Source: Chloroflexota bacterium (GTDB lineage Bacteria; Chloroflexota; Dehalococcoidia; Lucifugimonadales; UBA3495). From it: a stretch of 50,522 nt of DNA. Location: contig JAPPCX010000086.1 of NCBI GenBank assembly GCA_028875655.1, positions 1 through 50,522 on the forward strand, read 5' to 3'. The notes beneath the pieces were generated by a model. It saw only the letters and a program-made list of their open reading frames with translations, searched no databases and was not told the origin of the DNA. This document shows positions 1,089-43,439 of the stretch, piece after piece (within the stretch, counting starts at the first letter, position 1; each line of letters begins with the position of its first letter). The position numbers and the translations under genes were made by a program.

Positions 1089-2570
1089 GTGCAGTTTGCC
1101 GCCGAGGTGCTGGGCGTGACGCTGTGGGACAAGCAGTGCGAGGTTCTGGAGGCCGTGCGGCGGGAGCGCCGCGTGGCGGTCAAGTCCGGCAACGGGCTGG
1201 GCAAGGGATTCACGGCGGCGGTGGCCGTGCTGTGGTACCTGCACTGCCACGACCCGGGCATCGTGCTCAGCACCGCGCCCACGTTCCGGCAGGTGCGCCA
1301 CGTGCTGTGGCGACAGATTCACCGGCTGCATCGCGGCGCGGTCCAGCCGCTGGGCGGCACGCTGCTGGACACGCGGTGGGAGCTGGCCCAGGACCGCTAC
1401 GCCCTGGGGCTGTCGGCCGACGGCGCCGACCAGTTCCAGGGGTTCCACTGCGAGAACGTGCTGGTGGTGGTGGACGAGGCCGAGGGGGTGGCGGAGGAGA
1501 TCTACGAGGCGGTGGACGCGGTGATGACGTCGCGCAACCCCCGGCTGCTGCTCATCGGCAACCCCACGCGCACCGACGGGTCCTTCCACCGGGCGTTCCA
1601 CGAGGAACGGGGCATCTACCGCGCCATCACCATATCCGCGCTGGACTCGCCCAACCTGCGGGAGGGCGGGGTGGAGATACCGGGGCTGGTGACGGCCGAG
1701 TGGGTCGAGGAACGGCGCATCGCCTGGCGCGAGGACAGCGACCTGTACCGCGCGCGCGTGCTGGGCGAGTTCCCCCAACGAGGAGAGGACAACTTGATCG
1801 CAATGGATGACATAGAGGCGGCGGTGTACGAGCTTGGCATGGATGGACAGGATGGACGGGATTTTGGGATGTTTTTGGGAGACGGGGACGTTTCCGGCGG
1901 TGTAGGGGCGAATAATTATTCGCCCCTACGGGATGATCCGTTTGGGGTGTTTTTGCCGGAGAGGGACATGATTGGGGGACCCAATGACGTTGTAGGGGCA
2001 GGTTTCAAACCTGCCCCTACGGGTGGCGCTGGCCGTGTGGTCATCGGGGTGGACGTGGCGCGGTTCGGCAGCGACCGCAGCGTCGTGTTGATGCGCCGGG
2101 GCGACGCCGTGGTGTCAATCCGCACGTTTTCGCGCATCGACACCATGGCCGTGGCGGGGCAGGTGATGGTCGCGGTGCGGGAACACCGGCCCGACCTGGT
2201 GAACGTGGACGTGATCGGCATCGGCGCGGGCCTGGCGGACCGGCTGCGTGAGCAGGGCGTGCCGGCCCGGGACGTCAACGTGGCCGAGCGCCCCCGCCGG
2301 GATCGGACGTGCGCCAACCTGCGCGCCGAGGGCTACCGGACGCTGGCCGGCCGGTTCCGCGACCGGCGCATCCGCATCCCCCGCGACGCCGAGCTGATCG
2401 CGGAGCTGGCGACGCTGCGCTATAGGTACGACAGCCTGGGCCGCCTGCTGATGGAGCCCAAGGACGACATGAAGAAGCGCGGCGGACGCTCGCCCGACAA
2501 GGCCGACGCGCTGATGCTGGCCTTCCTGGACGAATCGTCAGAATCAGGATTCGCGGGATTATGGGATTAG
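1089..2570 (+). CDS. Phage terminase large subunit with repeat insertions
   Basis: The ATPase half shows a P-loop-like SGNGLGKGFTAAVAVLW near residues 32-48, a Walker B strand VLVVVDEAEGV, and a coupling motif LLLIGNPTRTDG. The RNase H-like nuclease half begins VVIGVDVARFGSDRS and continues with VNVDVIGIGAG and PDKADALMLAF, which supply the acidic metal ligands. The enzyme would cut and pump concatemeric DNA into proheads. GTG 1089 is the start I favour because the terminase-like sequence begins there; the frame is open further upstream but overlaps the zinc-ribbon gene. The P-loop ends GKG rather than GKT/GKS. About 65 residues between the two domains come from palindromic repeats, and the last codons and stop come from another repeat. 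With only a portal gene beside it, this is a phage remnant. Confidence 0.85.
   Translation: MQFAAEVLGVTLWDKQCEVLEAVRRERRVAVKSGNGLGKGFTAAVAVLWYLHCHDPGIVLSTAPTFRQVRHVLWRQIHRLHRGAVQPLGGTLLDTRWELAQDRYALGLSADGADQFQGFHCENVLVVVDEAEGVAEEIYEAVDAVMTSRNPRLLLIGNPTRTDGSFHRAFHEERGIYRAITISALDSPNLREGGVEIPGLVTAEWVEERRIAWREDSDLYRARVLGEFPQRGEDNLIAMDDIEAAVYELGMDGQDGRDFGMFLGDGDVSGGVGANNYSPLRDDPFGVFLPERDMIGGPNDVVGAGFKPAPTGGAGRVVIGVDVARFGSDRSVVLMRRGDAVVSIRTFSRIDTMAVAGQVMVAVREHRPDLVNVDVIGIGAGLADRLREQGVPARDVNVAERPRRDRTCANLRAEGYRTLAGRFRDRRIRIPRDAELIAELATLRYRYDSLGRLLMEPKDDMKKRGGRSPDKADALMLAFLDESSESGFAGLWD
1838..2036. repeat. Repeat cluster inside the terminase frame
   Basis: Two palindromes lie here. The one at 1902-1929 has 14-bp arms with no spacer, beginning GTAGGGGCGAATAA. 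The one at 1992-2020 has 14-bp arms around one base, beginning GTAGGGGCAGGTTT. The 5' part (1842-1875) has the GGAT-rich composition of the repeat at 2537-2643. The whole block is read through in frame and separates the ATPase and nuclease domains. Confidence 0.8.
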
Positions 2571-2643
2571 CAGGATTGATTGGCATCTCCGAACAATGCC
2601 CCAATCCTGAAAATCCCTGAATCCGGGAAATCCTGATTCTGAC
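2537..2643. repeat. Inverted repeat with GTCAGAATCAGGATT arms
   Basis: Perfect 15-bp arms (2537-2551 and 2629-2643) flank an interior of degenerate GGATT/AATCC units. The left part supplies the C-terminal residues and TAG stop of the terminase. A second copy with at least 13-bp perfect arms sits inside the restriction enzyme gene at 21203-21293, and a half copy lies at 5713-5756. No transposase is present, so any movement would depend on outside enzymes. Confidence 0.8.
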
Positions 2644-2668
2644 AATACATTCAAGGAGATATGAAACA

Positions 2669-5712: not shown

Positions 5713-5756
5713 CGCCAGAATCAAGATTCGCTGGATTTGGGGATTTGCACGATTAG
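5713..5756. repeat. Half copy of the CAGAATCAGGATT repeat
   Basis: GCCAGAATCAAGATT followed by GGATTTGGGGATTTG units resembles the left half of the repeats at 2537 and 21203. The right arm is absent. It lies just downstream of the Na/Pi cotransporter-like gene. Confidence 0.6.
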
Positions 5757-5807
5757 GTCGGCTGTGGCAAACTGCGCACACGGCCTACCTCATGCGGCCT
5801 ACCCTGG

Positions 5808-5882
5808 GCGGGCGTAACTCAGTGGTAGAGTGTTTGCTTCCCAAGCAAAAAGTCGTGGGTTCGAATCCCATCGCCCGCTCCA
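5808..5882 (+). tRNA. tRNA-Gly (anticodon CCC)
   Basis: The acceptor stem GCGGGCG (5808-5814) pairs with CGCCCGC (5872-5878), followed by T and an encoded CCA. The anticodon stem TTTGC/GCAAA encloses the loop TTCCCAA, with CCC at 5840-5842. The T-arm has GGGTTCGAATCCC. All four arms fold normally, so the gene should be functional. Confidence 0.97.
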
Positions 5883-20204: not shown

Positions 20205-22994
20205 ATGACGCCCGAACATTTCATCGCAACGTGGGAAAACACCACCCTGAACGAGGAGCAGGGCGCGCAGTCCTGGTTCAACGACCTCTGCGACCTCATC
20301 GGCCATCCCAAGCCCCTGGGTGAGCTTAACGGCCTGACCTACGCCTTCGAGCATCGCGTCGAAACCGGCAAGGCCGATGCCTACTACGAAAATCATTTCG
20401 GCTGGGAGTTCAAGACCCACGAGGGACAGCTGGACGATGCCATGCGCCAGGTGCTCGGCTATTCCATGTACCTGAAAACGCCGCCGCTGCTGGTGGTGTC
20501 CGCCTTCAACGTCATCCGCATCCGCACCAACTTCCCCGGCATGGAAAGCGTCCAGCGTGAAATCCGCATCGCCGACCTGGTGGAACCGGAATCCCTGGCC
20601 GTCGTCAAGCGGATTTTCACCGACCCTGACTGGTTCAACACCGGCAAGAGCCGCGACGACGTCACCAAAGAAACCGCCGCCCTGTTCCAGGCCGTCAGCA
20701 ACGACATGGCCGGTTCCGGCTACGGTCATCACGAACTGGCGCAGTACCTCAACCAGATCATATTCTGCCTGTACGCCGAGGACGCCGGCCTGTTGCCCGA
20801 CGGCGCGTTCACCGGGCTGGTGGTGAACCAGCGGCGGGAACCGGAGCGATTCCGCCGGGGCGCGCAGACGCTGTTCGCCGAAATGAATCACGGCGGCCTG
20901 TTCGGCCCGCAGACTATTGAGCATTTCAACGGCGAACTGTTCGCCCACGTTCCCGACGTGACGCTGAACACCGCCGCGCTGGAACGCCTGTCGGAAGCCG
21001 CGGCCAGGAACTGGAGCAACATCGAGCCGTCCATATTCGGCACACTGTTCGAGCGCGCGTTGGGTCTCACCGAGGAACGCGCCCCGCTGGGCGCGCACTA
21101 CACCAGCGAGGCAGATATCCGGCGAGTAGTCGAGCCGGTGATTCTGGACGACCTGCAACGCGAATGGTCGGCCGTCCGGGCGGAACTGGCGGGAGTAGAA
21201 TCGCCAGAATCAGGATTCCCAGGATTACAGGATTTGCGGGATTACGGCCCACAATCCTGGCAATCCTGTAATCCGCTAAATCCTGATTCTGACAATTCCC
21301 GCGCCAGTCAACGCCTCGAGGATTTCCGCCGTCGGCTGGCGTCGGTGACCGTCCTTGACCCCGCCTGCGGCAGCGGCAACTTCCTGTACGTAACCCTCAA
21401 GGCGTTGCTCGACCTGGAGCGGCAGGCCATCGACTATCAGGTCGGACTTGACCGCCGGCCCGGCCCGCCGCTGGTGAACCCTGCCCAGATGATGGGCCTG
21501 GAGATCAACGAGTACGCGGCGCAACTGGCCAAAACCGCCCTGTGGATTGGCTATATCCAGTGGCATCAGACCAACGGCTTCGCCTATACCAACCGCCCCA
21601 TACTGGACAACATCCACGGCGTTGAATGTCGGGACGCCGCCATCACTCTCAACGACGCCGGCGAAAATGCGATCAAAGCGCACTGGCCCGATGCCGACTA
21701 CATCATCGGCAACCCGCCGTTCCTGGGCGCAAAGGATATGCTCACCGAGCTGGGCGGCGAATACACCACCCGGCTGCGCCGGACCTACGCCAGCGAACTG
21801 GACGGCGCGGTTGACCTGTGCTGCTACTGGTTTGAGCAGGCCCGGGCGCAGATTGCATCGGGCAAGGCCAGGCGCGCCGGCCTGCTCGCCACCCAGGCGA
21901 TACGCTTCAGCAGCAACCGCCGGACGTTGGAGCGCATCAAGGAATCCGGCGACATCTTCGCCGCCTACGACGATCTGCAATGGAAACCGGAGGAACCCGG
22001 CTCCGCCGCCGTCCACGTCTCCATCGTTTGCTTTGACGACGGCAGCGAAACCACGAAAACCCTCAACGGCAACCCCGCCACCGACATCGACACCCGCCTC
22101 ACCGACGCCGTGCATCTCGACCGGGCGCAACTTCTCCCGCAGAACGCTGGCATCTGTTTCAAAGGGCCAGATAAGGGCGGCCCATTTGATCTAACGTCGC
22201 AGGACGCCGCAAGAATGCTGGCTGATGGCAACCCTAACGGCAAGCCCAACAGCGACGTGGTGAAACGTTACGTGATCGGCAGAGACTTGAACGGCAAACC
22301 ACAAGAGCGTTGGTTAATTGACTTTGGCGCAATGCCGGAACCTGACGCACAACTGTACAGTTTGCCGTACCAACACTGCCTGCAAGTAGTTAAGCCTACC
22401 AGAGCAAAGAACCGTGATAAACGTCTCCAAGAACGATGGTGGCAACATCGTAGAAGTGGTGATGATGTCAAAGGAGCCATTGCGTCGTTAACCCGTTACA
22501 TTGTCACTTGTCAGGTTTCCAAACATCGCTGCTTTCAGTACATAGATGCAAACACTCTACCGGACAGCACGATAGTTGCCTTTTGCCGTGAGGATGATTA
22601 CTTGCTTGGGATACTAGAAAACCGCATCCACAAGGTATGGACTGCCGCCATTGGCACGCAGTTGCGGGAAAAGGAATCGGGCCGGCGTTACATCATCAGC
22701 GAGTGCTTCGAGAAATTCCCCTTCCCGACACCAACGGAGTCCCAGCGCGAAGCGGTAGCCCAGGCCGCGCGGACGCTGGACGAGCAGCGGCGCAACGTCT
22801 GCCGCCCCAACGGAACCTATCGCCGCTCCATGACCGCCCTCTACAACGAAAACCCGCCCTGGCTGCAAACCGCCCACGCCGACCTTGATGCCGCGGTTGC
22901 CGACGCCTACGGCTGGCCGGCAGACTTGGCGGACGACGAAATACTGCGCCGCCTGGTGCGCCTGAACCTGAGCGGCGAGGCGGGGATGCCGTGA
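20205..22994 (+). CDS. MmeI-like type IIG restriction-modification enzyme
   Basis: The 929-residue protein has the MmeI-family plan and length. The N-terminal nuclease domain carries the PD-(D/E)XK-like element FGWEFKTHEG near residue 67. A helical linker holds YLNQIIFCLYAEDAGLL. The methyltransferase domain has the SAM-binding motif VLDPACGSGNF near residue 383 and the adenine-binding NPPF in DYIIGNPPFLG near residue 500. The target recognition domain follows at about 650-850. One chain would methylate and cut DNA. Residues 334-363 derive from an inserted inverted repeat and are foreign to the family. The recognition segment (about 22190-22640) is distinctly less GC-rich than the rest. ATG 20205 has only a weak ribosome binding site. 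Confidence 0.9.
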   Translation: MTPEHFIATWENTTLNEEQGAQSWFNDLCDLIGHPKPLGELNGLTYAFEHRVETGKADAYYENHFGWEFKTHEGQLDDAMRQVLGYSMYLKTPPLLVVSAFNVIRIRTNFPGMESVQREIRIADLVEPESLAVVKRIFTDPDWFNTGKSRDDVTKETAALFQAVSNDMAGSGYGHHELAQYLNQIIFCLYAEDAGLLPDGAFTGLVVNQRREPERFRRGAQTLFAEMNHGGLFGPQTIEHFNGELFAHVPDVTLNTAALERLSEAAARNWSNIEPSIFGTLFERALGLTEERAPLGAHYTSEADIRRVVEPVILDDLQREWSAVRAELAGVESPESGFPGLQDLRDYGPQSWQSCNPLNPDSDNSRASQRLEDFRRRLASVTVLDPACGSGNFLYVTLKALLDLERQAIDYQVGLDRRPGPPLVNPAQMMGLEINEYAAQLAKTALWIGYIQWHQTNGFAYTNRPILDNIHGVECRDAAITLNDAGENAIKAHWPDADYIIGNPPFLGAKDMLTELGGEYTTRLRRTYASELDGAVDLCCYWFEQARAQIASGKARRAGLLATQAIRFSSNRRTLERIKESGDIFAAYDDLQWKPEEPGSAAVHVSIVCFDDGSETTKTLNGNPATDIDTRLTDAVHLDRAQLLPQNAGICFKGPDKGGPFDLTSQDAARMLADGNPNGKPNSDVVKRYVIGRDLNGKPQERWLIDFGAMPEPDAQLYSLPYQHCLQVVKPTRAKNRDKRLQERWWQHRRSGDDVKGAIASLTRYIVTCQVSKHRCFQYIDANTLPDSTIVAFCREDDYLLGILENRIHKVWTAAIGTQLREKESGRRYIISECFEKFPFPTPTESQREAVAQAARTLDEQRRNVCRPNGTYRRSMTALYNENPPWLQTAHADLDAAVADAYGWPADLADDEILRRLVRLNLSGEAGMP
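21203..21293. repeat. CAGAATCAGGATT inverted repeat inside the MmeI-like gene
   Basis: Perfect 13-bp arms CAGAATCAGGATT and AATCCTGATTCTG enclose GGATT/AATCC units, as in the element at 2537-2643. The right flank GACAAT is also shared. The insertion keeps the reading frame and has no stop in the frame used. It falls just before methyltransferase motif I. Confidence 0.85.
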
Positions 22995-42850: not shown

Positions 42851-43439
42851 AGCTGCACTTCCTTATGATGACAGGTACTGTTGAGAGAAAATATCGGAGT
42901 CTCGCAAATTGTCAAGAGGCGGCGGATTTGGGAGATGGTCGTGGGCATACGTCTCCGGGCGTTTTACATCGACGGTCAGGATTATGGGTTTTCCCGCTCA
43001 TTTCCGCTCATTTCGGTTCATTTGAGTAGGGCGTTGGGGCGGGTTATGGCGGTGAATGGGGGCCGATTGGGCGGGTTTGGGCGTGGGGGTGTTGGCAGGT
43101 GGGCATTGGGATGGCTGGCGGGATGTGAGATTGCGGGACCGGCTGGTTTTTCGCATAGTGAGTTCATGTTAGAACTGGCGAGCCGTTAGGGTCAATGGGC
43201 GGGTGTCATCTTGTTAGAATCGGGATTTGCCGGCCCCGTATCAAGTACGGGGTGACCCCGTGTCGAGCACGGGGCAGGCTGTTATTTTGGGATTTACAGG
43301 ATTGGGGGGCGCTCCGGGCTTATTGGGAGCGGCTGAACGCTGGCGGCGGGGGCGGTGTGGGCGAGGATGGACGTATTGCATCGTGGTGGGTGGACCTGCA
43401 AAAAGTTGCCATTGTCAGTTCGGCAAAATATCACGCATT
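42851..43439. other. Non-coding stretch with several repeat types
   Basis: No convincing gene is present; open frames here are low-complexity and lack ribosome binding sites. A 10-bp tandem CGCTCATTTC occurs at 42995-43004 and 43005-43014, with a degenerate third copy to 43024. G-rich runs follow at 43050-43110. At 43213-43310, AGAATCGGGATTTG and GGGATTTACAGGATTGG resemble the flanks of the 2537 repeat, and they enclose two CCCCGTxTCxAG-type palindromes (43234-43252, 43256-43274). It seems to be a landing site for repeats between the catabolic block and the restriction-modification pair. Confidence 0.7.
43234..43274. repeat. Two adjacent CCCCGTA..TACGGGG-type palindromes
   Basis: The 19-bp palindromes at 43234-43252 and 43256-43274 differ by four bases from each other and resemble the one at 7242-7260. 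They are nested between halves of another repeat type. Confidence 0.8.

Follow-up and report, generated by a model that had tools for sequence, protein, structure and literature searches.

The window, i.e., the whole stretch of 50,522 nucleotides analysed here, carries on its forward strand a gene encoding an MmeI-like type IIG restriction enzyme-methyltransferase, and a palindromic repeat lies within this gene. The features considered are the following:

20205..22994, forward strand: MmeI-like type IIG restriction enzyme-methyltransferase, 929 aa (Pfam, PADLOC and PDB matches)
20376..20414, forward strand: PD-(D/E)XK nuclease motif D58, E68, K70 (16-sequence alignment)
21199..21297, forward strand: palindromic repeat, 99 bp with the outer AATCG/CAATT, imperfect GGATT-unit arms and a short loop
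21204-21292, forward strand: core of this palindrome in the MmeI-like gene, 89 bp
21204..21293, forward strand: insert-encoded residues 334-363 (PESGFPGLQDLRDYGPQSWQSCNPLNPDSD), predicted to be disordered (model pLDDT)
21357..21377, forward strand: methyltransferase motif I DPACGSG, intact
21711..21722, forward strand: methyltransferase motif IV NPPF, intact
2533..2647, forward strand: second full palindrome copy (core 2538-2642, 105 bp), which ends a terminase ORF
5715..5764, forward strand: left-half copy shortly upstream of a tRNA gene (5808-5879)
43214..43263, forward strand: weak left-half copy, 2 mismatches

The MmeI-like protein combines the Pfam domains MmeI_Mtase, MmeI_hel, and MmeI_TRD in one chain and matches PADLOC REase_MTase_IIG (E=1e-233) and PDB entry 5HR4, MmeI (E=1.5e-44). 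The nuclease residues D58 and E68-x-K70 and the methyltransferase motifs DPACGSG and NPPF were invariant across a 16-sequence alignment. Named relatives are Chloroflexota/Dehalococcoidia MAGs, one of which bears the label SAR202 cluster bin87. These MAGs presumably derive from marine sponges, and we take the host of the window genome (G000; 3.4 Mb, 123 contigs) to be a sponge-associated SAR202-type member of Dehalococcoidia.

The repeat possesses the exact arms CAGAATCAGGATT (21205-21217) and AATCCTGATTCTG (21279-21291), and its ends run on outward as AATCG/CAATT, so that the inverted repeat was taken to span approximately 21199-21297. The original prediction had the arms shared with a copy at 2537-2643, and both were found again there, at 2539-2551 and 2629-2641. 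Arm-like sites with up to two mismatches numbered seven in the window versus 0.67 expected, with a maximum of three across 100 shuffles. The hairpin within the MmeI-like gene has a predicted folding energy of -50.1 kcal/mol (z = -8.9; 0/200 shuffles equally good), and the copy at 2.5 kb likewise gave z = -8.9. An Rfam search of the window returned two tRNAs and nothing else, and a literature search with the exact arm strings gave nothing on bacterial repeats among the matches listed. A terminase large-subunit-like ORF (807-2570) runs at its 3' end into the second full palindrome, from which its last residues and stop codon come; distant viral terminase homologues extend beyond this stop.

The ORF stays open and stop-free across the repeat, as had been claimed, and the palindrome core corresponds to codons 334-363, so that the proposed addition of about 30 foreign residues just before methyltransferase motif I also holds. 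The linker between GAHYT and DPACGSG is longer by about 27 residues than the 62 usual in uninserted relatives, which follow the pattern WxxARxEIExLL-few residues-ARxRLExFRxRLASVxVLDPACGSG; the residues of the insert do not occur at this place in repeat-free homologues. Among 71 homologues from several phyla, the linker varied in length and contained repeats only in the genus of the window. In the AlphaFold model (mean pLDDT 89), a helix (302-332) is followed by the low-confidence insert (pLDDT <50 at residues 336-360), a second helix (366-380), and then the motif I strand; the insert is thus predicted to be an unstructured loop, positioned at the tip of a helical hairpin and immediately ahead of motif I.

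In the window genome, 37 exact arm matches were found versus 0 for the reversed control pattern, and around these about 15 full palindromes and 18 half copies were recognised by reading. The consensus is AATYG-TCAGAATCAGGATT-nnn-GGATT-nnn-GGATT-nn-CAGGATT-loop followed by its complement, with a usual length of 105-108 bp, whereas the copy inside the MmeI-like gene measures 89 bp. Copies are chiefly intergenic; of the 15 full copies, the two at MmeI linkers are the only ones that a long homologous ORF spans. Within the family, the dispersed repeat is almost limited to one genus, where the closed genome G010 alone holds about 109 arms, and the arm variants fit their own host genome. No target-site duplication was recognised in 79 copies, the AATCG/CGATT flanks being assigned to the inverted repeat itself, and no base-exact empty site for an intergenic palindrome was found in the closest relative, because the similarity stops before the element. 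The dispersal and the genome-specific variants nevertheless support the original description of the repeat as mobile, a property that we infer from sequence comparison.

The palindrome occurs at the MmeI linker in five genes, two in the window genome and one each in G006, G013, and G004. The same linker holds other inserts as well: two further MmeI genes (L041 in G001:C45 and L047 in G006:C31) carry in frame an unrelated dispersed repeat, GTCATTGCGAGG..., encoding SVIARNDSD..., whose core is also present at other loci of the genus, and one MmeI gene carries a third kind of insert. Judged from these alignments, the linker is a recurrent landing pad for inserts. All five in-gene palindromes have a length of 2 mod 3 and an open used frame, a combination found in 15/79 of the sampled copies generally. 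Four of the five have the 89-bp form with a short loop, which among the 79 sampled copies occurs only in these linkers. This shared loop suggests that the form has a common origin and was later passed among paralogues; the G004 copy is 110 bp long, with a loop like those of G004's own elements. Carriers fall at scattered positions in the trees rather than in one clade, with uninserted genes interleaved, and recombination among paralogues seems likely, since the domain trees disagree. At third codon positions, the inserts are 72-90% identical, compared with 42-53% for the remaining gene sequence; the inserts would therefore be younger than the divergence of the genes or constrained as nucleotides. 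In G013, the insert has a two-sided compensated arm change (CAGAAGC/GCTTCTG) that is also present in dispersed G013 copies. The proteins of L024, L026, L041, and L047 have a second variable linker after the DMEx motif, towards the end of the nuclease/spacer region; in some carriers this linker contains inserts of low complexity (VTPHSDA, VIPHADA).

The original prediction had left the choice between a tolerated linker and an enzyme inactive despite its open frame. A decaying gene that tolerates the insert would fit the branch on which the window gene sits, which is very long (1.38 substitutions per site versus about 0.1-0.2 for its paralogues). However, 929 codons remain open, the catalytic motifs are invariant, model confidence is high outside the insert, and between carriers codon positions 1 and 2 are conserved far above position 3, indicating purifying selection; we regard inactivity as improbable. 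The tolerated linker is favoured, given the open frame, the intact motifs, the disordered loop of the model, and the purifying selection on carriers, and the enzyme is probably still active, since the insert is predicted to form only a disordered loop at the hairpin tip. The recurrence could also reflect one ancient insert inherited in the gene family and selected as nucleotides, either as an mRNA hairpin or as a recombination joint. The 89-bp short-loop form, confined to linkers among the 79 copies, and the compensated change in G013 agree with this scenario, but it must contend with the scattered carriers, the G004 copy that resembles those of its own genome, the unrelated repeat occupying the same linker in two genes, and the fit of the CAGAAGC change to the dispersed copies of the same genome. 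A single ancient insert is thus rather unlikely, and entry of a mobile palindrome into a tolerant linker is the reading retained below.

Beyond the original prediction, paralogues and relatives have repeatedly received inserts in the same linker, and the repeat family is linked with genes of the GxxExxY family (PF13366/TIGR04256). These proteins have invariant E, D, E, and Q and conserved K and Y residues, a pattern that we take to be that of a RecB/Cas4-like PD-(D/E)XK nuclease. A sequence search found no PDB relatives, and no role was described in the searched literature, where one of the two papers naming the family uses the name only to denote the neighbour of a reverse transcriptase gene. 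PF13366 genes are present in 10/14 genomes of the window's genus; the four genomes lacking them gave 0-8 arm hits (two variants summed), and the match between gene and arms is loose, as G005 and G002 have the gene yet few arms. Two subfamilies, A and B, occur in the genus. Subfamily A (G000, G012, G013, and G004) has full copies of the MmeI-gene palindrome family on either side, in three different gene neighbourhoods as judged by eye from the flanks, and the arms of 8-11-nt units occur in multiple copies in the same genome, as in the class of GxxExxY-associated periodic palindromes proposed here. Each of the four G000-type loci has the gene flanked by two complete palindromes, not enclosed in one loop. 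Subfamily B forms one conserved locus in most genomes of the genus, between other inverted repeats, of the CAGGAT type; at L142-L144 and L149-L154, the flanking inverted repeats are of the ACATCGATGAACAGGAT type. Despite its numerous arms, G010 contains no subfamily-A gene, and the mobiliser there may therefore be another factor or have been lost.

The association was also examined at loci sampled from 400 Chloroflexota genomes, ten genomes reached via other loci, and plasmid records. With random-interval controls, 17/30 GxxExxY genes were bracketed versus 3/300 controls. Under a stricter design (200-bp flanks, score >= 15, controls shifted inside the same loci), a bracketing inverted repeat was found at 21/40 genes versus 0/236 shifted controls, the loci being partly related and the controls positional rather than gene-matched. 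The flanks of these loci show an association of GxxExxY with bracketing palindromes; about half of the sampled genes lack a clear bracketing repeat. Bracketed loci also occur in phyla beyond Chloroflexota. The arms are mostly periodic, with units of 8-11 nt that differ among loci (CGCAGATTA, CACGAATT, CACGGATGAAA, CACCGAG). The unit CGCAGATTNCGCAGATT has 79 copies in G325, where two GxxExxY genes lie between its + and - copies, and 126 in G077; two species sampled from the genus of G077 lack it. On plasmids, GxxExxY is rare (8/72,556 records); among the fetched loci of named isolates, that of Bernardetia is clearly bracketed by an inverted repeat, and the remainder show weak, direct, or degraded repeats or are unclear. 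A single query found no relative of GxxExxY in viral contigs that would indicate a phage source. In a Sphingomonas plasmid record (L291), GxxExxY sits between fabD and fabG, splitting the fatty-acid synthesis operon, with an CGCGAAGG-type periodic repeat upstream.

What moves these repeats can be considered in the light of this association. GxxExxY may itself be cargo, or a toxin-like module, carried on repeats moved by some other enzyme; the wealth of copies in G010 without a subfamily-A gene and the placement of the four G000-type genes between two complete palindromes are compatible with such a role. On the other hand, the bracketing is tight across phyla, with arm sequences specific to each genome, and no Y1 (RAYT) transposase was found in the 14 genomes of the genus. 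We regard a cargo role as a serious possibility, albeit somewhat less probable than its opposite. Movement as a REP element by a RAYT (Y1) transposase would suit a palindromic, dispersed, mostly intergenic repeat, yet PF01797 was detected in control genomes and in 0/14 of the genus, and this explanation is very improbable; RAYT was rejected as the mobiliser on the grounds of that absence.

The preferred explanation, which we consider likely as a whole, joins a MITE-like palindrome in a tolerant MmeI linker with a GxxExxY-associated element class. A non-autonomous palindrome would have inserted into the linker that joins the helical spacer to the methyltransferase domain. With a length of 2 mod 3 and the frame in which it is read, it leaves the ORF open, and the resulting loop at the hairpin tip would mark the site as tolerant rather than functional. 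The palindrome would be a gene-less member of a class whose inverted-repeat arms are periodic and whose larger members bracket GxxExxY, and GxxExxY, as a small PD-(D/E)XK nuclease, would cut or process hairpin ends and move gene-less palindromes in trans; mobilisation by GxxExxY is our inference. The palindrome is best understood as a non-autonomous representative of this little-studied class, and the GxxExxY-bracketing element, the new part of the finding, is its likely parent. More tentatively, and with some doubt, the CCACnGA/GGATT/CAGATT-type periodic palindromes of several phyla might form one mobile class whose mobiliser GxxExxY, a minimal RecB/Cas4-like nuclease, recognises hairpin arms of genome-variable 8-11-nt units, the MmeI-gene palindrome being its non-autonomous copy. 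If true, the link would provide a shared, testable function for a protein family that is uncharacterised and for a class of repeats that lacks an explanation.

The best-known palindromes of the in-frame kind are those of Rickettsia and Wolbachia, and here one recurs at a single type IIG hinge in GC-rich genomes of another phylum. To our knowledge, the RPE and WPE sequences are unrelated to the repeat described here, and the elements were set apart by their descriptions, the present one having periodic GGATT units. The likeness lies in a dispersed palindrome placed in frame inside protein genes, about 100-150 bp long in RPE/WPE and 89-110 bp here. Gmk stays active while carrying such an element (PMC2229807), and WPE-like inserts lie in frame in addA, addB, and priA (PMC4224334); in the window genome, by contrast, only the MmeI linker was found with full in-frame copies, and the link to GxxExxY does not appear in the RPE/WPE descriptions consulted. 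Bacterial MITEs (Correia/NEMIS, RUP, ERIC) are likewise small, non-autonomous, dispersed inverted-repeat elements, some of which fuse in frame with ORFs (PMC2229807), but they differ from the present repeat in its periodic arms and in the lack of a recognised target-site duplication. REP elements are similar as palindromic, mostly intergenic repeats and are separated from it by the Y1 transposase missing from the genus. The enzyme resembles MmeI in domain order, in its nuclease and methyltransferase motifs, and in the 5HR4 match; however, about 4 residues join spacer and methyltransferase in 5HR4 versus about 44 here, of which about 30 are repeat-derived, and the recurrence of inserts marks this junction as a naturally tested insertion-tolerant site in type IIG enzymes.
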